DNA of 44,351 bases. It comes from an uncultured Bacteroidia bacterium. Its GTDB lineage: Bacteria > Bacteroidota > Bacteroidia > Bacteroidales > Prolixibacteraceae. The stretch is taken from assembly GCA_903850335.1 (NCBI GenBank), contig CAINLJ010000254.1:1-44351 (forward strand). The letters run 5' to 3'. Both the position numbers and the translations under genes were made by a program. Numbering within the stretch: position 1 is the stretch's first letter; the number at the start of each line of letters is the position of its first letter. The notes under the pieces were generated by a model, which did no database searches, was not told the DNA's origin, and worked only from the letters and a program-made list of their open reading frames with translations. Of this stretch, positions 8,115 to 43,977 are shown piece after piece.

Positions 8115-8163
8115 AGATTTATTTTTTTGCTAAAATGAGCAGATGATTTAAAGATTTAATAAA

Positions 8164-12134: not shown

Positions 12135-13301
12135 ATGAAATATCTTTTGTCTTTCTCAATCGCAATATTCTTCATATTTATTAATTGCAAATCAAAATCG
12201 ATTGAACCATTACAGGCTGATATTGATGCGATTGTAAAACACTGGCTTCCTGATAAGAGAGTTGGAATCTGCAACTTTAATCTTGTTCCTACAAATAAAA
12301 GCGAAGTTGTGATAAAAGGTGAATCTCTTTACCCTGGTTCAAAGGCTGAGGTTTTGGATTTTCTCAGGGGAAAGGGTATTTCAATAATTGACAGCGTTGT
12401 AATTCTGCCGGATACCGTACGATTTGAGAAAAATTGGGGATTAGTCACGTTAAGTGTAGCAAATATGCGAACTAAACCTGCTCACTCTTCTGAAATGGTC
12501 TCCCAGGCAATAATGGGTACGCCGGTTCGAATTTTGAAAGAGATTGAGGGATGGACATTAATTCAGACTCCGGATCTCTATATTGGATGGACAAACAGGT
12601 CTGCCATCCACCCCATGACCCGATCCGATATCAATGAATGGCGGTCTTCTGAGAGACTAATCTATACAGGAACTGACGGAAGTATTAAAGGAGAAAACCC
12701 AGACAATACTATTATTAGTGATCTTGTGGCTGGTGCTCTGGTCGTAAAAAAGTCTGTTAGTTCTAAATTTGCAGTTATAGCTCTTCCTGACGGACGTACA
12801 GGGGTAATTCAGAAAGTTAACTGGACAGACTTCAATAAATGGAAGGATACTGTTTCTTTAAAAACTGACCTGATGATTTCTACAGGCAAAAAATTCATGG
12901 GTTTCCCTTACCTCTGGGGAGGTACATCATCAAAAGGGATGGATTGCAGCGGATTCGTCAAGACAGTATGTTTTTTAAATGGTGTAATCCTGGAACGTGA
13001 TGCTTCACAGCAGGTTAATCATGGTACAGAAGTAGATTTAAGTGGTGGTACGGGCAAGCTTATCAAAGGCGATCTCTTATTTTTTGGATCCAGACAACCA
13101 TACCGTGTAAACCATGTTGGACTATATATCGGAAATAGTGAAGTCCTTCATGAATCCGGAAGTGTACATATAAACAGCCTTGAAAAAGGAAAATCCAACT
13201 ATAACGAAGAGCTTGCATCAAATTTGGTTGCCGCAAGAAGAATTATTGGTAAATTTCCGGAAAAGGGGTATTGGCCATTAAAAAATCATAATTGGTATTA
13301 A
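12135..13301 (+). CDS. SH3-NlpC/P60 lipoprotein, murein-peptide endopeptidase (YkfC-like)
   Basis: 388 residues. The signal peptide ends at a possible lipobox Cys18 (FINC). One or two bacterial SH3-like domains (about 100-230) precede an NlpC/P60 cysteine peptidase domain (about 245-385). The catalytic residues can be placed as Cys271 in GMDCSGF, His327 in VNHVGLYIG and His339 in VLHESG. The layout (SH3 plus NlpC/P60, about 390 residues) matches gamma-D-glutamyl-L-diamino acid endopeptidases of the YkfC/dipeptidyl-peptidase VI group, which release L-Ala-D-Glu from murein peptides. The next gene encodes an L-Ala-D/L-Glu epimerase, its natural partner. Operon membership with both flanking genes is likely. 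Confidence 0.92.
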   Translation: MKYLLSFSIAIFFIFINCKSKSIEPLQADIDAIVKHWLPDKRVGICNFNLVPTNKSEVVIKGESLYPGSKAEVLDFLRGKGISIIDSVVILPDTVRFEKNWGLVTLSVANMRTKPAHSSEMVSQAIMGTPVRILKEIEGWTLIQTPDLYIGWTNRSAIHPMTRSDINEWRSSERLIYTGTDGSIKGENPDNTIISDLVAGALVVKKSVSSKFAVIALPDGRTGVIQKVNWTDFNKWKDTVSLKTDLMISTGKKFMGFPYLWGGTSSKGMDCSGFVKTVCFLNGVILERDASQQVNHGTEVDLSGGTGKLIKGDLLFFGSRQPYRVNHVGLYIGNSEVLHESGSVHINSLEKGKSNYNEELASNLVAARRIIGKFPEKGYWPLKNHNWY

Positions 13302-13339
13302 TTTTCTGAAAACTACTTAATAAAATAAATCTTCCAAAA

Positions 13340-14482
13340 ATGAGTGACAGGCGTAATTTCTTAAAAATTACTGGTCTAACTGCTGGTTCGATGCTTATAG
13401 GTGTGTCCGTTCCAGCATCTGAAAAAGTAGTTTATATCAATAGTAAAGCTGCTGGATTAGGATCGACAATGAAATTAAAATTTCGTCCTTACGAATTGCA
13501 GTTAAAACATGTCTTTACAATTGCAAATAATTCACGGACCACAACGCCGGTAATGCTTACTGAAATAGAATATGACGGAATTACGGGATATGGCGAGGCC
13601 AGTATGCCTCCTTATCTTGGAGAAAGTCATAAATCAGTGGCAGACTTTCTCTCAAAGGTTGATCTTACTATTTTTAAAGATCCTTTCCAAACAGAAGATA
13701 TCATATCCTATATTGATAGTATTGCCATTGGTAATTATGCGGCTAAGGCATCATTGGATATTGCGTTACATGATTTAACAGGCAAGTTGCTTCAGCAACC
13801 GTGGTTCAAATTGTGGGGCCTAAACTCTTCAAAGACACCAAACACAAGTTTTACAATTGGGATGGATACACCTGAAATCGTAAAGCAGAAAGTTCATGAA
13901 GCCGAAATATTTAAAATCCTGAAAGTTAAGCTTGGCAGAGATAATGACAAGGAGATGATCAGTACAATTCGTTCTGTGACCAACGTTCCAATCTGTGTGG
14001 ATGTAAATCAGGGTTGGAAGGATCGGGAGATGGCTCTTGATATGATTCATTGGCTTGCATTACAGGGAGTTGTCTTCATTGAACAACCTATGAGCAAACA
14101 TGCAGTAGAGGATATGGCATGGCTTACAGAAAAAAGCCCGCTGCCGGTCATGGCGGATGAGGCAGTACAAACTGTACACGATGTTCTGGCTGTCAACAAA
14201 GTTTATTCGGGCATAAATATTAAATTGATGAAATGCGGTGGTATGCGTAATGCATATAAAATGGCCTGCATGGCAAAAACAATGGGTATGAAGGTGATGA
14301 TCGGATGTATGACAGAAACTTCTTGTGCAATATCTGCAGCAGCCCAACTGTCGCCTTTGGCAGATTGGGCTGATTTAGATGGCAACTTATTGATTAATAA
14401 CGATATATATGATGGTGTAAAGATAGTGGATGGCAAAGTTACTCTTTCTGATTTACCTGGAATAGGAATTAGCCTAAGATAA
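13340..14482 (+). CDS. L-Ala-D/L-Glu epimerase-like dipeptide epimerase with Tat-type leader
   Basis: 380 residues of the enolase superfamily (MR/MLE). Catalytic-site residues of the dipeptide epimerase group can be placed: the KxK motif at 195-197, metal ligands Asp221 (CVDVNQGW), Glu248 (FIEQP) and Asp273 (MADEA), and Lys295 (INIKLMK). The N-terminus, DRRNFLKITGLTAGS, resembles a twin-arginine leader, which would place the enzyme in the periplasm or on the membrane. Characterised AE epimerases (YcjG, YkfB) are cytoplasmic, so this is unusual. The neighbouring NlpC/P60 lipoprotein would supply L-Ala-D-Glu. ATG at 13469 (MKLKFRP) would give a leaderless protein of the usual length, but the upstream coding sequence reads as a clean Tat signal, so I keep the longer start. 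Confidence 0.92.
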   Translation: MSDRRNFLKITGLTAGSMLIGVSVPASEKVVYINSKAAGLGSTMKLKFRPYELQLKHVFTIANNSRTTTPVMLTEIEYDGITGYGEASMPPYLGESHKSVADFLSKVDLTIFKDPFQTEDIISYIDSIAIGNYAAKASLDIALHDLTGKLLQQPWFKLWGLNSSKTPNTSFTIGMDTPEIVKQKVHEAEIFKILKVKLGRDNDKEMISTIRSVTNVPICVDVNQGWKDREMALDMIHWLALQGVVFIEQPMSKHAVEDMAWLTEKSPLPVMADEAVQTVHDVLAVNKVYSGINIKLMKCGGMRNAYKMACMAKTMGMKVMIGCMTETSCAISAAAQLSPLADWADLDGNLLINNDIYDGVKIVDGKVTLSDLPGIGISLR

Positions 14483-31274: not shown

Positions 31275-32723
31275 TTAAACTGAATAAGTTGTGGAGGCTG
31301 TATCTCCGCCACGGCCAGTCCAGTTGGTATGAAAAAATTGTCCCCGTGGTCTATCAATTCTTTCATAGGTATGAGCTCCAAAATAATCACGCTGGGCCTG
31401 AAGAAGATTTGCAGGTAATCTTTCACTTCGGAAGCCATCAAAATAAGTCAATGCTGTTGCCAGGCAAGGTGCCGGAACACCATGATTAACAGCGGCTGAA
31501 ACGACTCGCCGCCAACCTGCTTGCGCATTTTCAATGGTTTCCCTGAAATAATTATCAAGCAGTAAATGTTCTAATTGTGGATTCTTGTCAAACGCTTCCT
31601 TGATCTTGCCTAAGAATACAGAACGAATAATACAACCACCACGCCACATCAGAGCAATACCTCCATTATTTAAGTTCCATTTGTATTCCTTTGCTGCCTC
31701 ACCCATCAGATCGTATCCCTGTGCATACGAAATAATCTTTGCTCCAAGAAGTGCATCTTTTAAATCGCTCAAAAACTGCAATTTATCTCCACTAAAAAGC
31801 TTTTCCGGACCACTTAGAGCCTTGGATGCTTTAACACGAAGCTCCTTCTGGGCAGACAGGCAACGTGCAAAGACAGATTCCCCAATAAGAGTCAGTGGAA
31901 TTCCAAGGTCTAAAGCAGATACACCTGTCCATTTACCAGTGCCCTTTTGTCCTGCAGTATCCAGAATTTTCTCTACAAGAGCCTCTCCGTTTTCATCCCG
32001 AAAGCCGAGAATATCACGCGTTATTTCAACTAGATAACTGTCAAGATCTCCCTTGTTCCATTCTGCAAATACCTCATGCATTTCATCTGCCGACATGCCG
32101 AGTAATTCTTTCATCATCTGATAGGCTTCACAGATAATTTGCATATCTCCATATTCAATTCCATTGTGCACCATCTTCACAAAATGTCCGGCTCCATTTT
32201 CACCTACCCAATCGCAACAGGGTTCATCCCCAACCTTTGCAGCAACTGCCTGAAAAATAGATTTTACTGCCGGCCATGCTTCCGGTGAACCTCCAGGCAT
32301 CATTGAGGGTCCAAGAAGTGCACCCTCTTCGCCACCTGAAACACCGGTTCCGATGTATAGAAGACCTTTGCTTTCAACATAGGCTGTTCGTCTGATCGTA
32401 TCAGGGAAGTGGGAATTTCCTCCATCAATGATGATATCACCTTCCTCGAGATGAGGAATAATTTGTTCAATAAAATCGTCTACGGGGGAGCCTGCCTTTA
32501 CAAGCATCATCACCTTACGCGGTCGCTCAAGGCTGGCACATAGATCGGCGATGGAGTGACATCCAATGAAATTTCTACCGGCACCTCGGCCAGTCATAAA
32601 TTTATCGACCTTATCTATTGTGCGATTATACACGGAAACTGTGAATCCTTTACTTTCCATGTTTAACACAAGATTTTCTCCCATAACTGCAAGCCCAATC
32701 AGGCCAATATCTGCTTTCTTCAT
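31275..32723 (-). CDS. gnd: 6-phosphogluconate dehydrogenase (decarboxylating)
   Basis: 482 residues, full length for the long bacterial form. The Rossmann motif GLIGLAVMGENL (7-18) is followed by VYNRT, whose Arg suits NADP. GVSGGEEGA (127-135) and FVKMVHNGIEYGD (181-193; Lys183, Asn187, Glu190) form the active site, and the all-helical C-terminal domain is complete. It converts 6-phosphogluconate to ribulose-5-phosphate. No glucose-6-phosphate dehydrogenase gene lies beside it; instead it follows the sugar-acid genes, 81 nt after pdxB. This suggests that 6-phosphogluconate may come from gluconate rather than from glucose-6-phosphate (inference). Confidence 0.98.
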   Translation of the reverse strand: MKKADIGLIGLAVMGENLVLNMESKGFTVSVYNRTIDKVDKFMTGRGAGRNFIGCHSIADLCASLERPRKVMMLVKAGSPVDDFIEQIIPHLEEGDIIIDGGNSHFPDTIRRTAYVESKGLLYIGTGVSGGEEGALLGPSMMPGGSPEAWPAVKSIFQAVAAKVGDEPCCDWVGENGAGHFVKMVHNGIEYGDMQIICEAYQMMKELLGMSADEMHEVFAEWNKGDLDSYLVEITRDILGFRDENGEALVEKILDTAGQKGTGKWTGVSALDLGIPLTLIGESVFARCLSAQKELRVKASKALSGPEKLFSGDKLQFLSDLKDALLGAKIISYAQGYDLMGEAAKEYKWNLNNGGIALMWRGGCIIRSVFLGKIKEAFDKNPQLEHLLLDNYFRETIENAQAGWRRVVSAAVNHGVPAPCLATALTYFDGFRSERLPANLLQAQRDYFGAHTYERIDRPRGQFFHTNWTGRGGDTASTTYSV

Positions 32724-32804
32724 CTTTTAAAGTTTTCTGGTAATATTTTTTGTTTTAATGATTATTTTTTAAAATTTTCTTGTTACTACTCTGAATTACT
32801 CATT

Positions 32805-33926
32805 TTAAAGTCTGAATCCTAATTGATTAAGCTTGTGAATAGCTTTTAAATTGTTGATTTTACAAAAAATTCTAAACATTGGGAATTCTCGTCGGACAGG
32901 ATATTTACCACGTTGGTATTCAAATGTTTCCACAGATTCCCTTAAACGTTTATCATCTTGACGAATATCATAGGTAGACAAAATTGCCTCTGTGAGAATC
33001 TGCTGTATCGTTTTTCCTGTACCATCTATGAATATATCCAACTCTGAGGGCATTTCAACACCTGAGCATTTCCAGTTATTCAGTCCCAATTTAAAAAACT
33101 TACTTATAGCTCTCACACTCATGGTTGTTCCATTGGCCTTTCCGTCCCTCGAATATCCCGCAATATGAGGTGTTGCTAAATCTACGAGACCCAGCAACTC
33201 TAAATCGATTAATGGCTCATTTTCCCAACAATCAATTACAGCTCCAGAAATCTTGCCAGACCTTAATGCTTTTTTCAACGCCTCGGTATCTGTAACTTCT
33301 CCACGACATGAATTGATAATAATAGGAAGCTTTTTGACAGAAGAAAAAAATTCATCGTCTGCCAGATGGAATGTTTTATCTGCTCCTTCTAAATTTAGCG
33401 GAACATGCAGTGAAATAATATCTGCCTCTTGAATAATCTCTTTTAATCCAACAAACCCCTTAATGCCTTCGGCTCTTGCCCGGGGGGGATCATTGAGAAG
33501 AACCTTCATTCCGAGGATTTCGGATAACCGGGCCACCTTTGATCCTACATTCCCGACGCCAACAATTCCAATTGTTTTGTCCTTCAGGGAAAATCTTTTC
33601 TTTTCAGCCAGAACGATCAAGGCTGATGCAATATATTGTTCGACCGACTTTGCATTGCATCCCGGTGCGTTAGTCCAGTTTATTCCTGATTGCCCGCAGT
33701 ATGTTGTATCAATATGATCAAAGCCAATAGTCGCTGTAGCTATGAATTTAACCTTCGAACCAGACAGTAATTTCTCATTACACTCTGTTCTCGTGCGTGT
33801 GATCAGTGCGTTTGCGTCTTTGACATCCGATGTGGTTATTTTATCTCCAGGTAAATAAACAACCTCAGCATAAGGTTCCAAGGCCCCTTTTATATATGGA
33901 ATTTTATCGTCAATGATGATTTTCAT
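32805..33926 (-). CDS. pdxB: 4-phosphoerythronate dehydrogenase
   Basis: 373 residues, a D-2-hydroxyacid dehydrogenase with the PdxB layout. The start MKIIIDDKIPY and the segment ATATIGFDHIDT are PdxB-like, the Rossmann motif is IGIVGVGNVGSKVA, and the catalytic part contains NSCRGEVTD, WENEP and TPHIAGYS. The C-terminal dimerisation extension (about 300-350, with TYDIRQDDKRLRE) separates PdxB from other 2-hydroxyacid dehydrogenases. The enzyme oxidises 4-phospho-D-erythronate in pyridoxal-5-phosphate synthesis. Its place between the Gfo/Idh gene (10 nt) and gnd is unexpected for a cofactor gene, unless it supports another phosphorylated sugar-acid oxidation. Confidence 0.93.
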   Translation of the reverse strand: MKIIIDDKIPYIKGALEPYAEVVYLPGDKITTSDVKDANALITRTRTECNEKLLSGSKVKFIATATIGFDHIDTTYCGQSGINWTNAPGCNAKSVEQYIASALIVLAEKKRFSLKDKTIGIVGVGNVGSKVARLSEILGMKVLLNDPPRARAEGIKGFVGLKEIIQEADIISLHVPLNLEGADKTFHLADDEFFSSVKKLPIIINSCRGEVTDTEALKKALRSGKISGAVIDCWENEPLIDLELLGLVDLATPHIAGYSRDGKANGTTMSVRAISKFFKLGLNNWKCSGVEMPSELDIFIDGTGKTIQQILTEAILSTYDIRQDDKRLRESVETFEYQRGKYPVRREFPMFRIFCKINNLKAIHKLNQLGFRL

Positions 33927-33936
33927 GGCGTAAGTG

Positions 33937-34941
33937 CTAATAATTCAGGTCTTTATGGTAAAAACTATAAACCATCTCATCCATTACCTTGCTTGTTCGT
34001 GCTCCTGTAACTCCTGTTGAAGGAGATTTACCTTCGCCTCGCAGGGAAGCCACTACCTTTTCCATAAGATAGCTTTGGACATGTTTTGGCCTTTCAAACG
34101 GAAATTCAGATCGACCTGACCTATTTTCAAGAATAACAGGAACCGATTTAAACGTTGAGAAAATTATTTTTCCCTGATCACCAATTATCTCTACTTCGTC
34201 AAGAATATTTCTTTCCGAGGTTGTAAAACACCAGGTTCCTGTACCAGCAACACCCGTTTGATGTATCCAATTGGCAGCTACAAGATCTTCCGCATTATAC
34301 CGATGCGCCTGATTTAATGCGTTCGCCCTTACTCTTTCGATAGGACCAAAGACAAAATCAAGAAAATCAAGAGTGTGCGAAGCAAGATCGAAGAGCAAAC
34401 CGCCTCCGGATATTTCGGGACGATAGCGCCAGGGTGCAACTTTATTTTCGGCCTCACTTTCCAAAGGGGAATAAAACCTGACATTAACCAAACGAACGGA
34501 TCCTACAGCTAACGACTCAACCAGTTCCTTTACCTTAAGAAAAGCAGGTAAAGTTCGTCTGTAATAGGCAGTATATAAAGGAATTCCCGTTTCTTCGGAA
34601 ATCCTTATCATTTCACTGCATTCAGAGTAATTTCTTGCCATAGGTTTTTCAACATAGACCGGCTTTCCAGCACGCATCGCTTTAATCGCATATTCGTGAT
34701 GCGCATCTGGTGGTGTAGCAATGTAGACTGCGTTTACTTCGGGATCATTTATAAGTTCGTCTGCATTTGAATACCATCTGGGAACATTATGACGCCTGGC
34801 ATAGTCTTCAGCAAGTGTTGCATTTCTGCGCATCACAGCTACAAGGCTGGAATGAGGAGTCAATTGAAGAGGAGGCCCACTTTTAACCTCAGTTACATCT
34901 CCGCACCCTATTATTCCCCACCTAACTTCTTCTAATACCAT
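33937..34941 (-). CDS. Gfo/Idh/MocA-family oxidoreductase
   Basis: 334 residues. An N-terminal NAD(P)-binding domain has GIIGCGDVTE near residue 9 and the family motif EKP in VYVEKPMARN near residue 97. The C-terminal alpha/beta substrate domain has SGGGLLFDLASHTLDFLDF, where the Asp and His usually take part in catalysis. Members oxidise or reduce sugars, inositols or sugar acids. The start lies 7 nt after the LarA-like stop, so the two are probably co-translated. Its substrate is likely a sugar acid or derivative from the locus, but the sequence does not identify it. Confidence 0.93.
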   Translation of the reverse strand: MVLEEVRWGIIGCGDVTEVKSGPPLQLTPHSSLVAVMRRNATLAEDYARRHNVPRWYSNADELINDPEVNAVYIATPPDAHHEYAIKAMRAGKPVYVEKPMARNYSECSEMIRISEETGIPLYTAYYRRTLPAFLKVKELVESLAVGSVRLVNVRFYSPLESEAENKVAPWRYRPEISGGGLLFDLASHTLDFLDFVFGPIERVRANALNQAHRYNAEDLVAANWIHQTGVAGTGTWCFTTSERNILDEVEIIGDQGKIIFSTFKSVPVILENRSGRSEFPFERPKHVQSYLMEKVVASLRGEGKSPSTGVTGARTSKVMDEMVYSFYHKDLNY

Positions 34942-34948
34942 ACTTTAG

Positions 34949-36238
34949 TTAATCTTTAAATCTTTCGCTTACTGCCCAAAGACCAATAGCCGGGTTGGAG
35001 ATGTAATAAAATTCTTCACCCTCATCAGTAATGTTCCATCCATCTCTTAATTTTGATGGATTATATCTTTTGTTCATCTCCTCAAGACTCCCGTATTCAA
35101 ATCCGACTCCTTCAATTTCTTGTTTGGTCAGATTCTCTGTCGCAGTGCCAGGACAATAAATTACAGAAAACCTTCCCTCCGATGATCCATGGATAAGGTG
35201 TGCTGCGGCACTTAAATTATTTCGAAGGTCCTCATTTTCCCTTACTGCTTTTAAGGTTTGTGGAGTACCGAAATAGCCATATTTCCGAATCATTCGGTCG
35301 ATCTCAGGGTCTTCACCAAACTCCTTCAATCCTGGTGCCAGAACAATTAATTTACCACCGTCCTCAATGGCCATTCGTGTTCGGTAAATAGCCTTATTTC
35401 CTAACCAGGTTGATTTGAATTCTGATGGATCAAGATAAACGACAACTTTTTTGAGTGGTTGATCCAACATTTTAAAGTTCACTTTTAGCGATAGGGCAGA
35501 GGCAGCCTTAAAGACTTCCTTGTCATCACCAATATATAAACCACGAACTTTCAGTTTGCCATCCTCATTATCCATTCCGACGACGGTGAGTACGTAAAGT
35601 ATGGGTAAATGTTTGGCAAAATGATGACTAGCATAATTGAATATACGCCGGACCGGGGTCTGTGACCGGCCCATCATCTTTTCCATTCCAAAAGCAGCAC
35701 CTATGAAATGGCTTTTATTTATCCCTTCAATCCCTCCGGTCCCAACAAAGATATTTTTATTATGATTTGCCATTCCTACTACTTCGTGCGGAACGACCTG
35801 ACCAATAGACAATATAAGGTCATATCCCCCGAATGCAAGTAGTTTGTTAACCTGAGCAGGCCATGCAAAATCGACTGCACCTGCGGTTACTTCGCTTATA
35901 AAATCTGAGGGAACTTCCCCTAAAGTCACTACATCATTACGCCAATCATGATTACGGAATAATGACTGTGGAATTCCGCAGAACATCTCTGTGATCTGAT
36001 GCTCTGTCATAGGAGTATGAGTTCCTAATGCTGGTAGAATATCAGTAAGATTATTCCCGTAAAAATCATAAATATACCGTGTTAGCAATCCGGCATGAGA
36101 TGCAAACCTTGTAAAATCAGGAGGAATGGCAAGAATTTTATTCTTGCTTCCCAGAAGCGTTAAGGCAGTGTACAATCCTTCCTTTAGATCGTTATCAGAA
36201 AGTGAAGCCGTTGGCGAACCGGTCTGAAAGTATATCAT
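34949..36238 (-). CDS. LarA-family (nickel-pincer nucleotide) racemase/epimerase, possibly a sugar-acid 2-epimerase
   Basis: 429 residues of the LarA/DUF2088 family. Recognisable parts are PPDFTRFASHAG (40-50), ALGTHTPMTEHQ (70-81, His74) and GQVVPHEVVGMANHNKNIFVGTGG (146-169). His151 and Lys161 correspond in position to residues that bind the nickel-pincer nucleotide in LarA. From memory, LarA homologues include lactate, malate and other 2-hydroxyacid racemases and a D-gluconate 2-epimerase that interconverts gluconate and mannonate. Its neighbours are a mannonate oxidoreductase, a sugar kinase and 6-phosphogluconate dehydrogenase, which make the last activity attractive here. The cofactor genes larB, larC and larE are not in the window, so the cofactor must be made elsewhere in the genome. 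Confidence 0.85.
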   Translation of the reverse strand: MIYFQTGSPTASLSDNDLKEGLYTALTLLGSKNKILAIPPDFTRFASHAGLLTRYIYDFYGNNLTDILPALGTHTPMTEHQITEMFCGIPQSLFRNHDWRNDVVTLGEVPSDFISEVTAGAVDFAWPAQVNKLLAFGGYDLILSIGQVVPHEVVGMANHNKNIFVGTGGIEGINKSHFIGAAFGMEKMMGRSQTPVRRIFNYASHHFAKHLPILYVLTVVGMDNEDGKLKVRGLYIGDDKEVFKAASALSLKVNFKMLDQPLKKVVVYLDPSEFKSTWLGNKAIYRTRMAIEDGGKLIVLAPGLKEFGEDPEIDRMIRKYGYFGTPQTLKAVRENEDLRNNLSAAAHLIHGSSEGRFSVIYCPGTATENLTKQEIEGVGFEYGSLEEMNKRYNPSKLRDGWNITDEGEEFYYISNPAIGLWAVSERFKD

Positions 36239-36346
36239 GTTTTTCCTTTATAATTAGGTTTCCGTAGATTTCAAAAACGTTGATGCGCTCTTTTAATATT
36301 GCCGTAATCTTTGAACACTTATATCCTTTAAAGTATCTGACATATA

Positions 36347-37426
36347 TTACCTTCTAACCCGTGCATTGCCTTTCCAGATACTCCAAACCATCTCCTCATC
36401 GGCAGGCTGTGCATAATCCGTCATAAATGTTGTGGCAAGTGCTCCTGTCGCCCAGCCAAATTGTGACCATTTGTAAGGTTCCCACTCCCTAAGTATTCCA
36501 TAAAGTAATCCTCCCACAAATCCGTCTCCACCACCTATGCGGTCAAGAACAGCAATTTTTCGTGGTTCAATTACATTCCATGTATCTCCTTCCAGCATAA
36601 TTGCACCCCAAAGATGTTCATTAGCATTAATCACCTGACGTAGCGTGGTTGCAAATATGGAGGAGTTTGAAAACTTTTCTTTCACCCTCTCTATCATTGC
36701 TTTAAATCCTTCTATTTCAGCATCTATGCCTTTTCCACCAGTTTCAGGGCCTTCAATTCCAAGGCAAAGTTGAAAATCTTCTTCATTTCCAATTAATATA
36801 TCAGAAAGGGAAGCAATTTCGGTAAATAGCTTACTTAATTCATCTTCACGTCCTTTCCAGAAGGATGCACGATAATTCAGATCAAAAGATATGCGAGTAT
36901 TATATTTTTTTGCAATTCGGGCAATTTGCAGACAAAATTCGCTTGTCTCAGGCGATAAGGCGGCAATTAATCCTGAAAGATGAACAATTTGTACCCCTTC
37001 ATTACCAAAAATCTGTTCAAGATCAAAATCTTTCACGTTTAATGTTCTTCCAACCTCTCCTGCACGATCATTCTGCACTCTTGGACCCCGTGAACCTAAT
37101 CCGCTGTCAGCAATGTTAAACTGATGACGAAAGCCCCAGGGATCACCTTGTTCTATTTCCGGTCCTTCAAAGTACATATTTCGGCTCCTTAGATTACTCT
37201 TGATAAACCGCGCAATCGGACTGTCTTTGACAAATGTTGTAAGTACTTTAACCGGCAGCCCCAGGTAGGATGCAATGCTTGCAACATTGGTTTCTGCACT
37301 TGTTGCATACATATGGAAAAGATCACTTGAGTGTACGGGTTGCCCATTAACCGGTGTTATCCTCACTCCCATGCTGGTAGGAACTAATAAAGACCAAAGA
37401 TATTTTTGTTTTAAGGGAAGGGTCAT
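36347..37426 (-). CDS. PfkB-family sugar/sugar-acid kinase (KDG kinase-like)
   Basis: 359 residues with the ribokinase/PfkB fold. The substrate-side segment TSAETNVASIASYLGLPVKV (41-61), FDLNYRASFW (181-190, typical of 2-keto-3-deoxygluconate kinases) and the catalytic GGGDG at 298-302 (Asp301) are visible. It phosphorylates a sugar or sugar acid with ATP. In the standard hexuronate pathway this would be KDG to KDPG. The N-terminus lacks the usual GE..lR opening of KdgK, and the internal segment around residues 110-130 (SRGPRVQNDRAGEVGRT) is unusual, so gluconate or another acid is a possible substrate. It lies 60 nt downstream of the SDR gene and 108 nt upstream of the LarA-like gene. Confidence 0.85.
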   Translation of the reverse strand: MTLPLKQKYLWSLLVPTSMGVRITPVNGQPVHSSDLFHMYATSAETNVASIASYLGLPVKVLTTFVKDSPIARFIKSNLRSRNMYFEGPEIEQGDPWGFRHQFNIADSGLGSRGPRVQNDRAGEVGRTLNVKDFDLEQIFGNEGVQIVHLSGLIAALSPETSEFCLQIARIAKKYNTRISFDLNYRASFWKGREDELSKLFTEIASLSDILIGNEEDFQLCLGIEGPETGGKGIDAEIEGFKAMIERVKEKFSNSSIFATTLRQVINANEHLWGAIMLEGDTWNVIEPRKIAVLDRIGGGDGFVGGLLYGILREWEPYKWSQFGWATGALATTFMTDYAQPADEEMVWSIWKGNARVRR

Positions 37427-37486
37427 AATTTATTTCTTAATTTATTATTGATACAGCACTTGACTAATCTATTTTTTATAGAAGGA

Positions 37487-38338
37487 TTAAACCCCGCTGT
37501 AAGCATTAAATCCACCATCCACTGGGATTACTATTCCGGTCACAAAGGCCGATAAGTCTGATAATAAATATAATACCGCCCCCTGAAGATCATCTGGTTC
37601 ACCAAATTTCCCCATTGGAGTATTGTTTACTATCTTGGTTCCGCGTGCAGAATACTCTCCTGATTTTTCATCAATTACTAAAAATCGATTCTGGTTTGTT
37701 ATAAAAAATCCGGGAGCAACCGCATTAACACGGATTCCTGCTTTTGCTAAATGTACCGCAAGCCATTCTGTAAAGTTGTTTACAGAGGCCTTCGCCGCTG
37801 AATATGCGGGTATTTTTGTCAGTGGATGATATGAATTCATACTCGAGATATTCAATACAACACCTGCTTTCTTCTCCAGCATATCTTTCGTAAAGACCAT
37901 TGAAGGTAATACTGTTCCTTTAAAATTCAAGGCAAATACATCATCAAAACCCTCCATCTCAAGCCCATAAAAGGTCTTTTCAATCGAATTGAGGTCATTA
38001 TCCAGGATTTGCTCTACTTGTGTAGTGGCTTTAGGTGAATTCCCTCCTGCACAATTTACAAGTAAATCAATTGCACCAAGCTGTTGGTTTATTGTTATTT
38101 TAGCTTTTTCTAAGCTAGGTTTGTCGAGAACATTTGCTCCAACACCGATAACATCTGCATTATATTCATGGGAAAGATCTGAAGCAATTGCAATTGCCTT
38201 TTCCTCATTACGCCCAAGAATAGCAACCTTTATTCCGACTGATAGGAGGGCTCTTACAATTGCGATTCCAATAATGCCAGAACCTCCGGTAACTACGCAA
38301 ACTTTCCCACTTAGATCTTCAAAGGATAATTTATTCAT
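37487..38338 (-). CDS. SDR-family D-mannonate oxidoreductase (fructuronate reductase), probable
   Basis: 283 residues, classical short-chain dehydrogenase. The nucleotide-binding TGGSGIIG lies at 17-24, NCAGG at 95-99, the catalytic Ser at 165-166 and Tyr179-x3-Lys183 in YSAAK. The loop with PKATTQVEQ after NCAGG and the general layout match the SDR enzymes used by Bacteroidota in place of UxuB to reduce D-fructuronate to D-mannonate. The uxaC and uxaE genes on the other side of the regulator make fructuronate, which supports the assignment. The gap of 45 nt after the LacI gene suggests co-transcription with the regulator. Confidence 0.88.
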   Translation of the reverse strand: MNKLSFEDLSGKVCVVTGGSGIIGIAIVRALLSVGIKVAILGRNEEKAIAIASDLSHEYNADVIGVGANVLDKPSLEKAKITINQQLGAIDLLVNCAGGNSPKATTQVEQILDNDLNSIEKTFYGLEMEGFDDVFALNFKGTVLPSMVFTKDMLEKKAGVVLNISSMNSYHPLTKIPAYSAAKASVNNFTEWLAVHLAKAGIRVNAVAPGFFITNQNRFLVIDEKSGEYSARGTKIVNNTPMGKFGEPDDLQGAVLYLLSDLSAFVTGIVIPVDGGFNAYSGV

Positions 38339-38383
38339 GTATAATTCTCGTTTTCAAATGTTATACCACTTTAAGTTTAACAC

Positions 38384-39436
38384 TTAGATGGATATATAAT
38401 ATTTATAATTCTCTTTGGTGATGATATCTATAGCTGTATAATTAGCCTCATTCACGCTTTCTTTCCTCACAATCTTATCGAATAAAATATTAGTTGCTGA
38501 AAAACCCTGAATTTCAGGATTTTGATTTAAAAGAAAATCAATTTTATCCTGAAGAAGCAAATCTACATTTTTGGGAATCAAATCATATCCAATGATTTTA
38601 GGGCGTACTTCGTATGAGTCAAACAATCCTGCCACAAGGTGTACTTTCGAATTGGAGACAAAGACGGCATCAATAGAATCAACCTTCGCAATACTTGTAT
38701 TAAGACTTGTAGCTCGCTGGATTTCGTCTGATCCGACTTCCATTTTAATAATCCTGTGTGATTTATGACCAACGGTCTCAAAATAATTCAGAAAACCTGT
38801 TTCGCGTAAGAGCAGGTGGTTCGCATTTTGTAGATTCTTTGTAATATGAATCATTAAAATATTACTCTTTGGAGTAATTCCATAATCGAGTAGCTTGGCT
38901 GCAAGGAAACCGCTCTGAACGGAATCCTGAACTACAAAACTCATCGGGTGGGCCTCTTCAAGTGTTGAGTCTATAAATACATAGGGTATTGACTGTTCAT
39001 CAAGAATCTGCGTAAATTTTAACGATTCTCTTTTTCCCCAGGGTGCCAGCAAGATACCATCAGGCTTGGATTCAAGTATTTTATTGGATTCCCTTGTAAA
39101 CGAATCCGGATCTTCCATTTTAAAATGGTATTGCTCAAGTCGGATGCCATATTGGCTAAGCCGGTTGACCGCCTTATCGATACCTTCCTGAGGTTTCGAC
39201 CAGAAGGAATCTTTATTTCCTGCCTTGGGAGTAAGCGAAGCAAAGTTTATTATCTTTTTTGATGCAAGCGTGCTAGCTAATATGTTAGGACGATAATCAA
39301 ATTCACGGATTATTTTAAGAATTTTTTCCCGTGTCTCTTCCGATACTTCTCCCCGCTGATGCAATACCCTGTCCACTGTTCCAATGGATACACCGGCTTT
39401 CTTTGCAATATCCAGAATTCTGATGTTTTTTGTCAT
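38384..39436 (-). CDS. LacI-family transcriptional regulator of the hexuronate locus
   Basis: 350 residues. An N-terminal helix-turn-helix (about residues 6-30, DIAKKAGVSIGTVDRVLHQRG) with hinge helix (RPNILASTLA) is followed by a periplasmic-binding-protein-like sensor domain. The inducer is likely a hexuronate or a derived keto acid, judged from the genes on both sides. It is divergent from uxaE. Two near-palindromes of the form CGTGnnCGnnCACG lie in the 269-nt gap between them, which suits repression of both directions including its own gene. Confidence 0.95.
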   Translation of the reverse strand: MTKNIRILDIAKKAGVSIGTVDRVLHQRGEVSEETREKILKIIREFDYRPNILASTLASKKIINFASLTPKAGNKDSFWSKPQEGIDKAVNRLSQYGIRLEQYHFKMEDPDSFTRESNKILESKPDGILLAPWGKRESLKFTQILDEQSIPYVFIDSTLEEAHPMSFVVQDSVQSGFLAAKLLDYGITPKSNILMIHITKNLQNANHLLLRETGFLNYFETVGHKSHRIIKMEVGSDEIQRATSLNTSIAKVDSIDAVFVSNSKVHLVAGLFDSYEVRPKIIGYDLIPKNVDLLLQDKIDFLLNQNPEIQGFSATNILFDKIVRKESVNEANYTAIDIITKENYKYYISI

Positions 39437-39493
39437 ATGGTAAAAATGAATGGTAAGATATTTATTTTGATTGTTTTTACCTATAATTGGTCA

Positions 39494-39501
39494 CAAAATT
39501 A
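39494..39501 (-). promoter_or_regulatory. Candidate -7 box for the LacI-led operon
   Basis: On the minus strand the sequence reads TAATTTTG, an exact TAnnTTTG match, 58 nt upstream of the ATG of the LacI gene. The -33 region would fall over the first operator (39521-39534), consistent with autorepression. A clear TTTG at -33 is not seen. Confidence 0.4.
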
Positions 39502-39520
39502 ACCCAAATATTTTAAATCA

Positions 39521-39534
39521 CGTGTACGAACACG
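39521..39534. promoter_or_regulatory. LacI-family operator 1 (near-palindrome)
   Basis: CGTGTACGAACACG matches its reverse complement at 12 of 14 positions and has the central CG typical of LacI-family operators. It lies 85 nt upstream of the regulator gene and shares the core CGTGnACGAACACGG with operator 2. Confidence 0.75.
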
Positions 39535-39610
39535 GAAAAAATGTTTAAAAACATAAATTATTAATTTTTGCCCCTGCAGATTTTGAATTGAAATGAAAAC
39601 CATTTAATTT

Positions 39611-39624
39611 CGTGAACGAACACG
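39611..39624. promoter_or_regulatory. LacI-family operator 2 (near-palindrome)
   Basis: CGTGAACGAACACG repeats operator 1 with one base changed, 90 nt away, and lies 82 nt upstream of uxaE. Two copies of the same rare motif in a regulator's divergent promoter region strongly suggest the regulator's binding sites. Confidence 0.75.
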
Positions 39625-39705
39625 GGCAGAGAAAATATTGAAATTCTACCTTAAATCAACATCATAAAAATACGTTATTACAACGAATCAATAAAATAAA
39701 TTTCT

Positions 39706-40953
39706 ATGAAAATAGGTAAATACAGTTTAGGTATTGGTGACCGGTTTGGACATCAGGGAGAGGCACAACTAAGAGCGGTAATCAGGGCAGCGGAATTAGG
39801 AGTCGGGATTGATCCGGTATGGAATAAATCTAACCGGGAACATACATATATCCACTCTCAACCTCAGGATACACGAACAGAAGCAGACGCAGCTGTTAAG
39901 TCATTATCGTTTAAAGGCAGATATTTTGTTGATGCAGATCATATAAATATTTCGAATGTTCAGGGTTTTATTTTAGCCTCTGATTTCTTTACCCTGGATG
40001 TAGCTGGTAAAATTGGTACTGAGTCAAACCCGGAAGATATTCAGGCATTTATAGGAAGCTGCACTAAGTATTCAGGTACTCTGAATATTCCGGGAATAAC
40101 TAATGCTTTGGAAGTTCCGGAAAAATTAATTTTTGAAACAGGACAAAAATTTCTGGCTGCAATTAGCGAAGCAGGCAGAATATACAAATACATAGCTGAT
40201 CAGAAGGGTTCCGGGAATTTTGTTACAGAAGTTTCAATGGATGAGGTTGAATCACCCCAAACACCGGTAGAATTATTTTTTATTTTGAAGATGATCGCCG
40301 ATCAGGGGATTCCGGCTCAGACAATTGCCCCCAAATTTACCGGACGTTTTAATAAAGGAGTTAATTATGCTGGTGATGTGAAGCAATTCTCCCGTGAGTT
40401 TGAAGAGGATGTTCTTGTCATTGATTATGCAATACAGGAATTTGGATTACCCGATAATCTCAAACTAAGTGTTCATTCAGGATCAGACAAATTCTCAATT
40501 TATCCTGAAATCTCGCGGATTATTAAAAAATATGATAAGGGCATTCATGTGAAAACTGCAGGAACAACCTGGCTTGAAGAAGTTATTGGTTTGGCACTTG
40601 CTGGTGGTGAAGCACTGGATCTTGTCAAACAATTTTACATTGAAGCTCTTAGCCGTCAGCAGGAATTGTGTGCCCCCTATGCCGACGTAATAGATATTAA
40701 ACAGGATGAATTACCCTCCTCTGAAGAAGTTCTAAAGTGGGACTCTGAGAAATTTGCAAATACACTCCGACACATTCCAGGACATGTTGATTATAATCCA
40801 AATTTCAGACAATTGATCCATGTGGGTTATAAAATTGCAGCTGAAAGTGGCGCTAAGTACTTAGGTTTGCTCATACAACATAAAGAAATTATTGGTAGCT
40901 GTGTAGAAGAAAATCTCTTCGACCGGCATCTCAAAAGACTTTTTGATCTTTAA
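39706..40953 (+). CDS. uxaE: Tagaturonate/fructuronate epimerase family protein
   Basis: 415 residues. The start MKIGKYSLGIGDRFG and the segment RYFVDADHINI (72-82) are like the UxaE family, in which D-tagaturonate is epimerised to D-fructuronate (first described in Thermotoga). The neighbouring uxaC gene makes both keto acids from galacturonate and glucuronate, so UxaE would merge the two branches. It is the first gene of the plus-strand arm under two LacI operators and is followed by uxaC after 45 nt. The assignment rests on overall resemblance and context. I cannot place the metal site with certainty. Confidence 0.85.
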   Translation: MKIGKYSLGIGDRFGHQGEAQLRAVIRAAELGVGIDPVWNKSNREHTYIHSQPQDTRTEADAAVKSLSFKGRYFVDADHINISNVQGFILASDFFTLDVAGKIGTESNPEDIQAFIGSCTKYSGTLNIPGITNALEVPEKLIFETGQKFLAAISEAGRIYKYIADQKGSGNFVTEVSMDEVESPQTPVELFFILKMIADQGIPAQTIAPKFTGRFNKGVNYAGDVKQFSREFEEDVLVIDYAIQEFGLPDNLKLSVHSGSDKFSIYPEISRIIKKYDKGIHVKTAGTTWLEEVIGLALAGGEALDLVKQFYIEALSRQQELCAPYADVIDIKQDELPSSEEVLKWDSEKFANTLRHIPGHVDYNPNFRQLIHVGYKIAAESGAKYLGLLIQHKEIIGSCVEENLFDRHLKRLFDL

Positions 40954-40998
40954 ATTTCAAATTGAACGATACCTGTTTGTTACCTCAAAAGCTTTTAT

Positions 40999-42405
40999 AT
41001 GAAGTCATTTATGGATGAAGATTTTCTGCTCCAAACAGAAACTGCAAGGCAATTGTATCATGAATATGCCAAGTCGATGCCTATTTTCGATTATCATTGT
41101 CATATATCACCTCAGGAAATTGCTGAAAACCGTAGGTTTAATAACCTGACAGAGATCTGGCTTCATGGCGATCATTACAAGTGGAGGGCAATGAGGACAA
41201 ATGGTATTGATGAGAAATTCTGTACAGGTGATGCAAGTGACTGGGAGAAATTCCTTAAGTGGGCTGAGACGACTCCATACACGATGCGGAATCCATTGTA
41301 TCACTGGACTCATCTTGAATTACGGAATCCTTTTGGAATAACTACCCTGCTGAATGCTGATTCTGCCGGTCAGATATGGGATAAATGCAATGAATTGCTG
41401 GCAAGGGAAGATTTTTCGTGTCTGGGAATAATAAAAAAAGCAAACGTTAAATTGATCTGTACAACAGATGACCCAATAGATTCTCTTGATTATCATAGTA
41501 TTATCAAAAGTAGTGAATTTGATGTTAAGGTTATACCGGCTTGGCGACCTGATAAAACTATGTCAATTGAGGATCCTGTTCTTTTTAATTCATATGTCAA
41601 TCAAATTGAGTCAGTATCAGGAATTTCGATTACATCATTTGATAACTTTATCGAAGCTCTGGATAAGCGTCACAAAAATTTTCACGACAATAGTTGCCGT
41701 CTTTCAGATCATGGACTTGAAACTATTTTTGCCACCGAATACAAACAAACTGAAATAAACACTATTTTTAATTCCCTTCGAAACGGGAAAATTGTATCAC
41801 CAGAAGATAGTTTGAAGTATAAATCTGCAATGTTGTATGAATTTGCTGTAATGGACCATAGCAGGAACTGGACTCAGCAATTTCATATCGGAGCGCTGCG
41901 TAATAATAACTCCCGAATGTTTTCATCCATTGGGGCAGATAAGGGTTTTGATTCAATTGGTGATCTACCGGTCGCGACATCACTATCCAAATTCCTAAAC
42001 AGGCTGGATTGTGATAAAAAGCTTACCCGCACTGTTCTTTATAATCTTAACCCTTCGGACAATGAAGTGATGGCTACGATGATCGGAAATTTTCAGGGCG
42101 GGATAACTCCAGGAAAAATTCAATGGGGATCGGGTTGGTGGTTTCTCGATCAGAAAGACGGGATGACTAATCAGATTAATACACTTTCAAATCTTGGATT
42201 ACTAAGTCGTTTTATTGGGATGCTCACCGACTCAAGAAGTTTTCTTTCTTACTCGCGTCATGAATATTTTCGTCGGATCCTATGCAATTTAATTGGCAAT
42301 GATGTTCAAAATGGGGAAGTTCCGAATGATATTGAATTTTTGGGTAATATGGTGCAGGACATATCTTATAATAATGCAAAAAATTACTTTCAATTTGATT
42401 TATAG
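40999..42405 (+). CDS. uxaC: Glucuronate (uronate) isomerase
   Basis: 468 residues, full length. The N-terminal motif FDYHCHISPQEIAENRRF carries metal-site His33 and His35, and the family segments NLTEIWLHGDHYKWRAMR (50-67), FHIGALRNNNSRMF and the late WFLDQKDG and GMLTDSRSFLSYSRHEYFRRI are present. It isomerises D-glucuronate to D-fructuronate and D-galacturonate to D-tagaturonate in the cytoplasm. It sits between uxaE and the transporter, with gaps of 45 and about 45 nt, most likely one operon. Confidence 0.98.
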   Translation: MKSFMDEDFLLQTETARQLYHEYAKSMPIFDYHCHISPQEIAENRRFNNLTEIWLHGDHYKWRAMRTNGIDEKFCTGDASDWEKFLKWAETTPYTMRNPLYHWTHLELRNPFGITTLLNADSAGQIWDKCNELLAREDFSCLGIIKKANVKLICTTDDPIDSLDYHSIIKSSEFDVKVIPAWRPDKTMSIEDPVLFNSYVNQIESVSGISITSFDNFIEALDKRHKNFHDNSCRLSDHGLETIFATEYKQTEINTIFNSLRNGKIVSPEDSLKYKSAMLYEFAVMDHSRNWTQQFHIGALRNNNSRMFSSIGADKGFDSIGDLPVATSLSKFLNRLDCDKKLTRTVLYNLNPSDNEVMATMIGNFQGGITPGKIQWGSGWWFLDQKDGMTNQINTLSNLGLLSRFIGMLTDSRSFLSYSRHEYFRRILCNLIGNDVQNGEVPNDIEFLGNMVQDISYNNAKNYFQFDL

Positions 42406-42450
42406 GTTATCCAGTTAAATTTTAATAGTTTACATTATATCCATTAAGTG

Positions 42451-43977
42451 ATGAACCAAATTAACCAAAGAATCGGCAAGTACCGATGGACAATATGTGC
42501 CCTTGTATTTTTTGCTACAACAGTAAATTATTTGGACCGGCAGGTCTTAAGTTTACTGAAAGACAGGCTTGAGGTTCAGTTTAACTGGAGCGACTCTGAT
42601 TATGCGAACATTGTTTCAGTGTTTCAATTTGTATATGCTATTTCCATGATTTTTGCCGGCCGGCTAATTGACTGGCTTGGAACCAAATTCGGATATGCCT
42701 TGTCCTTGATTATTTGGTCTGTTGGCGCAATGGTGCATGCCCTTGCAAAAGGTACAGGAGGGTTTATGTTTGCAAGGGGTGTATTGGGATTTGGAGAGTC
42801 TGGCAACTTTCCAGCTGCTATAAAAACTGTAGCAGAATGGTTTCCCAAGAAAGAACGTGCCTTGGCAACAGGCATATTTAACTCAGGTACAAATGTAGGT
42901 GCAATACTTGCTCCAATGACTGTTCCATGGCTTGCGGACCACTTTGGATGGCAATCTGCGTTCTTAATCATAGGAGGAATAGGTTTTATATGGCTGATTT
43001 TCTGGTTTTGGCTGTATGAAGTGCCAGCACGAAGCAAACGAACTGGTTTGCTGGAGATTGAATACATAAATTCAGATAATGGGTCAGACCGTCAGACAAG
43101 CAGTGATTCGAAGGAAAGTCCTATTTCATGGATCCAACTTCTGAAATTTAAACAAACCTGGGCGTTCAGCTTCGGTAAATTTATGACCGATGGGGTATGG
43201 TGGTTCTTCCTTTTCTGGCTGCCGGCATATTTGAAGGCACAATATGGAATGACAGGCACCGATGTTGCTATTCCTTTGGCGGTTTTATACATGCTGTCAT
43301 CTATTGGGAGCATTGGTGGAGGATGGTTTCCAATGTATTTTATCAACAAGGGATATGAGCCTTATGAGGGTCGTATGAGAGCTATGTTAACAATCGCATT
43401 ATTCCCGCTGATTGTATTAACGGCCCAGTATTTTGGAACAATAAGTTATTGGTGGCCTGTAATAATAATTGGAATTGGAACCGCTGCTCATCAGGCCTGG
43501 TCAGCAAACATATTCACTACTGTCTCGGATATGTTTCCAAACAAAGCGGTGGGAAGTGTCACAGGCATTGGGGGAATGGCAGGTGGAATTGGAGGAATTG
43601 TTGTAAATAAATCTGCAGGATGGCTGTTTGACAGTTACCGGCACGCCGGTATTGCGAAGGCCTGGACTGATGCAAAATTATCTAATTTGGGAGAATATGT
43701 GGATAAGATCCGGTCTCTTCAGCTTGTAAATAAGCATGGAGATATTATTAACATAAATAAGGTTGAATTGTCCGGACTTCCGGCTGATGTAGCGACAAAA
43801 TTACAAGCTATTGATCCGGTCTCGTATAATCTCCTAAAATCCGTACAATATCCAATAGTTCAGCATAATATGACAACGGCCTATACAATCGTGTTTGCAT
43901 TTTGTGCTCTGGCTTATTTAGTTGCCTGGGGTATTATGCACACGCTTGTTCCCAGATTTAAGAAAATTGAACTTTAA
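42451..43977 (+). CDS. MFS hexuronate transporter (ExuT-like, ACS family)
   Basis: 508 residues with about twelve transmembrane helices. The N-terminal VNYLDRQVLSLL and RGVLGFGESGNFPAAIKTVAEWFP segments are typical of anion:cation symporters of the ExuT/GudP type. A hydrophilic insertion of about 90 residues lies near the end (from about residue 395). It probably imports glucuronate or galacturonate with protons. I chose ATG at 42451; a GTG one codon upstream (42448) is also in frame and gives one more Met-like residue. It is the last gene of the plus-strand arm. Confidence 0.92.
   Translation: MNQINQRIGKYRWTICALVFFATTVNYLDRQVLSLLKDRLEVQFNWSDSDYANIVSVFQFVYAISMIFAGRLIDWLGTKFGYALSLIIWSVGAMVHALAKGTGGFMFARGVLGFGESGNFPAAIKTVAEWFPKKERALATGIFNSGTNVGAILAPMTVPWLADHFGWQSAFLIIGGIGFIWLIFWFWLYEVPARSKRTGLLEIEYINSDNGSDRQTSSDSKESPISWIQLLKFKQTWAFSFGKFMTDGVWWFFLFWLPAYLKAQYGMTGTDVAIPLAVLYMLSSIGSIGGGWFPMYFINKGYEPYEGRMRAMLTIALFPLIVLTAQYFGTISYWWPVIIIGIGTAAHQAWSANIFTTVSDMFPNKAVGSVTGIGGMAGGIGGIVVNKSAGWLFDSYRHAGIAKAWTDAKLSNLGEYVDKIRSLQLVNKHGDIININKVELSGLPADVATKLQAIDPVSYNLLKSVQYPIVQHNMTTAYTIVFAFCALAYLVAWGIMHTLVPRFKKIEL

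Follow-up and report, generated by a model that had tools for sequence, protein, structure and literature searches.

A hexuronate operon of an uncultured Prolixibacteraceae bacterium that may lead through mannonate and gluconate to 6-phosphogluconate

How does a bacterium bring hexuronates into central metabolism when its operon carries the enzymes leading to D-mannonate and lacks both a mannonate dehydratase and a 2-keto-3-deoxy-6-phosphogluconate (KDPG) aldolase? This question is raised by a stretch of 44,351 nucleotides from an uncultured member of the Prolixibacteraceae (Bacteroidota; assembly GCA_903850335.1, contig CAINLJ010000254.1), in which two divergent gene runs (31275-43977) lie around one 269-base control region. 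The stretch, hereafter the window, spans contig C254 from end to end, and nothing is readable past its right end; the host draft genome comprises 5.5 Mb and is 95.6% complete. Genes were called with NCBIfam and Pfam family models against curated cut-offs. We propose, at a probability of about 0.6, that the operon links the isomerase and pentose phosphate pathways via mannonate, gluconate and 6-phosphogluconate. A preliminary description of this DNA had suggested such a route on to ribulose-5-phosphate, and the suggestion gains support from the lack of a UxuA match, the presence of the larBCE genes and a KDPG aldolase (KdgA) that has a kinase of its own.

The six enzymes of the proposed route are encoded by open frames at the places given in the preliminary description, and family models identified each of them. 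UxaC, the glucuronate/galacturonate isomerase (40999..42405, plus strand; NF002794, 651 bits vs 387; PF02614, 699 bits), would convert glucuronate to fructuronate and galacturonate to tagaturonate, and the tagaturonate 3-epimerase UxaE (39706..40953, plus strand; PF16257, 169 bits, cut-off 27, no NCBIfam match) would turn tagaturonate into fructuronate. A short-chain dehydrogenase/reductase (SDR) of the D-mannonate oxidoreductase type, in the UxuB role of fructuronate reductase (37487..38338, minus strand; subfamily model NF006132, 371 bits, cut-off 281), would then reduce fructuronate to D-mannonate. From there, a LarA homologue of sequence group 18 (34949..36238, minus strand), the predicted D-mannonate/D-gluconate 2-epimerase, may use the nickel-pincer nucleotide (NPN) to invert C2 and yield D-gluconate, which a PfkB-family kinase (36347..37426, minus strand; PF00294, 66 bits vs 26), a predicted gluconokinase (or mannonokinase), would phosphorylate at C6. 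Finally, the NADP-dependent decarboxylating 6-phosphogluconate dehydrogenase Gnd (31275..32723, minus strand; TIGR00873, 761 bits) would oxidise and decarboxylate 6-phosphogluconate to ribulose-5-phosphate and NADPH. The SDR step consumes one reduced nucleotide and Gnd returns one NADPH; the NADPH gain expected earlier is thus a swap. Genes were identified, or recorded as absent, by model searches; for the LarA and kinase steps, substrates and order are inferred.

The rest of the genome was then searched for competing and supporting functions. UxuA had no match genome-wide in a search with PF03786, a model that was positive in 5 of 14 control genomes; an enolase-type mannonate dehydratase (ManD) or Edd, neither of which this model covers, could still draw mannonate or 6-phosphogluconate into another route. 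The only KDPG aldolase of the genome lies on another contig (C25) and adjoins a predicted 2-keto-3-deoxygluconate (KDG) kinase; UxuA and KdgA are thus both absent from the locus, as had been noted. The C25 cluster (L054:8857-16082) reads KdgA-KdgK-LacI, divergent from KduI, an SDR gene in the KduD position, GH88 and DUF4861; it appears to form a self-sufficient pathway, distinct from the window operon, in which KDG derived from lyase products (unsaturated uronates) would pass through its own kinase and aldolase. We considered whether this KdgA could rescue a KDG route for the window operon and rejected the idea, given the kinase beside KdgA and the lack of an operator match: the 19 kb around KdgA contain no copy, at up to 3 mismatches, of the operator-like motif described below, against a chance expectation of 1.8. 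The arrangement that would have spoken for a conventional route, uxuA and kdgA elsewhere under the same operator, was not found. No P-loop gluconokinase was matched genome-wide, and the four FGGY kinases over the cut-off look like other kinds, their N domains being closest to glycerol, xylulose, rhamnulose and ribulose kinases; a fifth FGGY match (C260), below the cut-off, was left out of this typing. LarE, LarC and LarB are adjacent on C223, each over its cut-off, and the 14 kb around them hold one 3-mismatch operator match, which equals the chance expectation. The window Gnd is the only one of the genome (a single PF00393 match). Its description as Gnd without Zwf holds at the locus but not genome-wide, where zwf (TIGR00871, 636 bits) is paired with pgl on C258 (L150:4794-7124), with no Gnd beside them.

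The predicted epimerase had been recognised as a LarA-family enzyme, and it scores 648 bits with NF052594, 'nickel-dependent putative hexonate epimerase' in NCBIfam, against a cut-off of 500. We aligned it with the proteins of 20 of the 21 other group-18 genomes of a phylum sample (alignment A1; G014 was left out). Across these 21 sequences, D41, R44, H74, H151, K161, H177 and K282 are invariant; they correspond to LarA D72, R75, H108, H174, K184, H200 and K298, catalytic and NPN-binding residues according to the list in PMC7583248. The signature given for groups 18-20 includes an E-V/S pair in the loop and a helix-11 W (Desguin 2020, PMC7583248), and this substrate signature of the D-gluconate 2-epimerases (GntE) is present as E152 V153 and W278, again invariant. 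GntEs usually also carry A and H in the helix-14 region (PMC11770544, PMC7583248). A346 and H347 are invariant and match helix 14 (the places of LarA W358 and T359) by motif only, the 4NAR alignment being two off there; N341, which aligns to GntE2 N348, is N in 19 of the 21 sequences. The predicted structure (mean predicted local distance difference test score 86.6) has its best fold match in 4NAR of Thermotoga maritima (template modelling score 0.77), a protein about 25% identical to the homologue and given as GntE2 in PMC7583248. The window enzyme thus resembles GntE1, GntE2 and LarAH15, all D-gluconate 2-epimerases, in its catalytic and NPN-binding residues, E-V loop and helix-11 W, and it differs from GntE1 (group 19) and GntE2 (group 20) in belonging to the separate group 18. 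Groups 19 and 20 epimerise D-mannonate, whereas for group 18 a hexonate substrate is put forward in the same paper as a hypothesis only (PMC7583248). Lactate racemase was rejected as an identity on account of the loop, which is E-V and not hydrophobic (compare PMC7583248).

A second LarA homologue of this genome (C135; L055:8027-9289) has an H-P loop and lies beside a ceramidase-like gene, two TIM-barrel genes, and MFS and SBF transporter genes; the loop and these neighbours led us to reject it as a pathway member. Among the 15 more distant LarA homologues of the phylum sample, all 8 that were read carry the loop E and the helix-11 W, and from these residues part of that set also looks like GntE.

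The kinase is a PfkB protein by Pfam and by fold and so differs from the classical FGGY and P-loop gluconokinases. With KDG kinases (KdgK, PfkB; 2AFB) it shares the fold and the DLNYR and DRxGGGD motifs, and the arginines of DLNYR and NDR and the aspartate of GGGD are kept. In contrast, GGGEAN of the KDG-kinase rows is replaced by TSAETN, and N stands in place of the IYF and YDR tyrosines, which we take to contact KDG. In a tree of 92 kinases from the loci described below, the window clade (49 rows) lies on one side of a branch with a support of 100/100. The 19 rows closest to the KDG-kinase type of C25 or L034, mostly beside KdgA, KduD or UxaC, fall elsewhere, and the window kinase is outside the clade of kinases with such neighbours. 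A second LarA-associated clade of 18 rows is 31-34% identical to the window kinase, with six stray rows between; the branch bearing the window clade is long and drew a long-branch warning from the program, so the exact joins are unsure. With three KDG kinase models, the window kinase scored 93, 38 and 24 bits against cut-offs of 440, 400 and 400, and the C25 kinase beside KdgA scored 218, 124 and 53 bits. With the kinase half of a KDPG aldolase/kinase fusion model, the C25 kinase reached 513 bits and the window kinase 163, both below the cut-off of 700, which is set for the fused protein.

To compare neighbourhoods, 101 loci were assembled, 21 from the phylum sample and the best 80 of 577 relatives. 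A simple open reading frame (ORF) caller returned the LarA ORF in 97 of them, leaving out L053, L097, L134 and L138; the loss of L053 is likely due to the caller's overlap rule, as the G014 gene is open. Counts within 4 kb are based on 65 loci, that is, the 97 minus 32 with less than 4 kb on one side. The order SDR-kinase-LarA-Gnd recurs in 38/97 loci and SDR-kinase-Gnd-LarA in 5/97. Near LarA, Gnd was found in 58/65 loci, an SDR gene in 56/65, and a PfkB or pyrophosphate-dependent phosphofructokinase (PPi-PFK)-like kinase in 53/65; by type, the kinase was window-type in 33/65, second-type in 17/65 and PPi-PFK-like in 3/65. In 13/65 loci, a kinase of the KDG type occurs together with a LarA-associated PfkB kinase. 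The closest of the best 80 of 577 relatives, L064, has KdgA-KdgK-UxaC-UxaE facing LacI-SDR-PfkB-LarA-Gfo-PdxB-Gnd. Bacteroidota, Verrucomicrobiota, Acidobacteriota (Edaphobacter), Planctomycetota and Ignavibacteriota are represented among these 80; beyond Bacteroidota, an Ignavibacteriales locus (L112) shows the complete order and two Planctomycetota loci show variants of it, and several Verrucomicrobiota loci have the kinase and LarA without Gnd or SDR. Four loci (L037, L044, L121 and L143) carry PPi-PFK-like and haloacid dehalogenase (HAD)-type genes beside LarA, with no PfkB kinase seen; the PPi-PFK-like gene could equally be a substitute kinase or serve a downstream sedoheptulose-phosphate step.

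The phylogenetic profile covered 395 genomes of the phylum, and its statistics ignore shared ancestry. UxaC was found in 139 genomes and UxuA in 105. A group-18 LarA is encoded in 22, and 15 have a different LarA homologue; a 44-residue LarA fragment (G326) was counted in neither LarA set. UxaC is present in 21 of the 22 group-18 genomes. Within the UxaC genomes, UxuA accompanies 6/21 with group 18 vs 94/118 without it, and a LarA homologue of any kind occurs in 26/39 genomes with UxaC and no UxuA vs 9/100 with both (Fisher 1.8e-11, ancestry uncorrected); in 13 UxaC genomes, UxuA and LarA homologues are both missing. Sixteen of the 22 group-18 genomes lack UxuA, and 15 of these 16 are 98-100% complete.

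Several observations weigh against a gluconate route. The nearest solved fold of the window kinase is the T. maritima KDG kinase 2AFB. Since the C25 kinase also falls below the KDG kinase cut-offs, the models rank the two kinases and decide nothing, which weakens one argument for the route. The presence of Zwf means that the sole Gnd also has another job. In 12/65 loci, the 4 kb to either side of LarA hold none of the kinases named above on the LarA strand. UxuA was found in 6 of the 22 group-18 genomes and, in 8/97 loci, beside LarA on its strand (2 of 2 scanned were true UxuA), so the route does not replace UxuA in every case. LarC (TIGR00299) was found in 8 of the 22 group-18 genomes and in none of the other 14, in a search aimed at LarC alone; three of the LarC-less genomes (G124, G188 and G302) are single-contig assemblies. 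With LarC in 16/373 of the remaining genomes, 8/22 is still an enrichment, the LarA proteins of the 14 LarC-less genomes keep the nickel-pincer residues in the group-18 alignment, and LarC is also missing from 9 of the 15 genomes with other LarA homologues. The window genome has LarC, and its own case is not weakened by this gap. PMC11796402 mentions genomes with LarBCE and no LarA, the accessible part of that paper making no mention of the reverse. The accessible parts of the GntE literature assign no assayed enzyme to group 18, and the authors of the 2020 study caution that gene context sometimes failed to predict activity (PMC7583248).

These points leave room for other explanations. The kinase could act before the epimerase, with PfkB making 6-phosphomannonate from D-mannonate and the LarA homologue epimerising it to 6-phosphogluconate. 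Both activities were shown in Lactobacillus suebicus extracts, where they were left without assigned genes (PMC6978723), SDR-kinase-LarA-Gnd is the commonest gene order (38/97), and the KM of three assayed GntE for free D-mannonate is 9.4-120 mM (PMC7583248, PMC11770544). Gene order is, however, weak evidence of reaction order. GntE2 takes the free acid with a kcat of 197 per s (PMC7583248), and group 18 has the GntE loop and helix-11 residues, of which the acidic loop residue would disfavour a phosphate. We consider this order a serious rival, though less likely than epimerisation first; if it were true, the operon would hold candidates for the genes missing from the L. suebicus pathway.

An improbable alternative is that PfkB is a KDG kinase, with mannonate dehydrated by, for example, an enolase-type ManD, LarA acting on another hexonate and Gnd being the housekeeping copy. 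The fold match to 2AFB fits this explanation, as do the sequence matches to solved structures, in which 2AFB comes second after the uncharacterised PfkB kinase 4GM6. The single Gnd in a genome with zwf, the C25 kinase likewise under the curated KDG kinase cut-offs and a UxuA negative that does not cover ManD genome-wide also speak for it. On the other hand, the C25 kinase, which stands with KdgA and KduI, scores higher in all three KDG kinase models (218 vs 93, 124 vs 38 and 53 vs 24 bits), the window kinases form a clade of their own and share loci with the KDG type, LarA also occurs with Gnd in Ignavibacteriota and Planctomycetota loci (L112, L125 and L141), and the enolase-superfamily gene of the window goes best with models other than ManD. 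Mannonate might also be split between parallel branches, with UxuA leading to KDG and LarA to 6-phosphogluconate for NADPH and pentose supply, and with UxuA lost or unassembled here. UxuA beside LarA in 8/97 loci and a genome completeness of 95.6%, not 100%, are compatible with such a split, and in T. maritima a single regulator controls both operons (PMC3750489). It is nevertheless highly improbable, as most group-18 genomes have no UxuA and nearly all of these are close to complete.

The proposed sequence of mannonate, gluconate and 6-phosphogluconate has partial precedents. In T. maritima, the galacturonate locus regulated by UxaR reads gnd-uxaE-uxaD-gntE-gntK (PMC3750489); a gluconate route was proposed for this species by Rodionova 2012 (cited in PMC6978723 and PMC7583248), and its GntE2 was later shown to epimerise D-mannonate (Desguin 2020, PMC7583248). 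As in T. maritima, UxaE, a fructuronate reductase, a LarA-type 2-epimerase, a sugar kinase and Gnd are co-located beside one regulator. Unlike there, LarA belongs to group 18, the kinase is PfkB-type, the regulator is LacI-type, and PdxB and Gfo/Idh genes are added. The T. maritima kinase, GntK, is presumably of the FGGY family. T. maritima also keeps a kdgAK-uxuBA operon, whereas the window genome shows no UxuA. In the galacturonate-phosphoketolase pathway of L. suebicus, mannonate is converted to 6-phosphogluconate by a kinase and then an epimerase, with no genes named for the two steps, and UxuA, KdgK and KdgA are marked ND in the table of identified proteins (PMC6978723). The two systems have in common UxaC, UxaE, UxuB, the conversion of mannonate to 6-phosphogluconate and a following Gnd; they differ in the L. 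suebicus order of kinase before epimerase and in its phosphoketolase ending. Among the titles and abstracts found in searches of the openly accessible literature, none reports a hexuronate route via gluconate in Bacteroidota, a PfkB gluconokinase or a named mannonate kinase. New in comparison with Thermotoga are group 18, the PfkB clade apart from presumed KDG kinases, and the frequent PdxB partner.

The control region between the runs contains two near-identical copies of CGTGNACGAACACG, starting at 39521 and 39611. These operator-like sites read CGTGTACGAACACG (39521..39534, plus strand) and, 90 bp from it, CGTGAACGAACACG (39611..39624, plus strand). The pattern was picked by eye in this same region, and the figure of 0.22 matches expected by chance across the window, with 2 mismatches allowed, can therefore serve only as a guide. 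All 101 loci were scanned. Among the best 80 of 577 relatives, 27 of the 39 loci with a LacI-like ORF have a match of this quality directly before LacI, which gives the motif independent support; none was found in the 21 phylum-sample loci, only 2 of which hold a LacI-like ORF. Pairs 89-90 bp apart also occur in L064, L067, L072, L076, L077 and L082, and other pairs are about 70 bp apart. The LacI-family regulator (38384..39436, minus strand; PF00356 and PF13407) would bind both sites in the divergent control region.

LacI leads the leftward run, which continues with SDR, the PfkB kinase, the LarA homologue, Gfo/Idh, the PdxB-like gene and Gnd, with gaps of 7-108 bases. The rightward run consists of UxaE, UxaC and a major facilitator superfamily (MFS) transporter (42448..43977, plus strand; PF07690, 190 bits; best NCBIfam model TIGR00893, 215 bits, under its cut-off of 395), which probably imports hexuronate. 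The span of 31275-42405 first given for the cluster holds the genes ascribed to it but ends too early, as the transporter gene carries the cluster to 43977. The Gfo/Idh/MocA oxidoreductase (33937..34941, minus strand; PF01408 and PF22725) appears to be an optional member, with a homologue near LarA in 16/65 loci. The PdxB-like 4-phosphoerythronate dehydrogenase (32805..33926, minus strand; NF001309, 458 bits, cut-off 434) recurs in relatives: 35/97 loci carry a homologue on the LarA strand no more than 4 kb away, often together with Gnd, and a HAD-type gene was found near LarA in 9/97, the two together only in L122. The usual substrate of PdxB is 4-phosphoerythronate. This compound inhibits Gnd, and a Bacillus subtilis mutant unable to remove it is poisoned by gluconate (PMC6449344). 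PdxB would clear 4-phosphoerythronate and so protect Gnd, and a metabolite-repair pairing of the PdxB and HAD genes with Gnd is possible.

Elsewhere in the window, multihaem cytochromes with MtrC/MtrF-like domains lie at 3538-9498 beside an iron-sulfur flavoprotein oxidoreductase; a role in extracellular electron transfer is possible. At 12135-14482, an NlpC/P60 peptidase gene is followed by the enolase-superfamily gene, which scores highest with the N-acetyl-Glu racemase and Ala-Glu epimerase models, though under their cut-offs, and far lower with ManD.

In a wider and more tentative picture, which we consider possible rather than probable, the route would be widespread; most hosts (14/22) would obtain the cofactor without LarC, by a new nickel insertase or by uptake from neighbours; PfkB would be a third structural family of gluconokinases; and PdxB would keep Gnd free of 4-phosphoerythronate. 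The LarC gap raises the question of where the nickel-pincer cofactor comes from. If true, the proposed route would account for the use of glucuronate and galacturonate by many Bacteroidota, and by some other bacteria, that have no mannonate dehydratase, and it would give a function to a large group of nickel enzymes that NCBIfam calls just 'putative hexonate epimerase'. It would also provide gene candidates for the steps from mannonate to 6-phosphogluconate, and a redox-neutral connection between pectin sugars and pentose phosphates whose genes could be transferred to laboratory strains.

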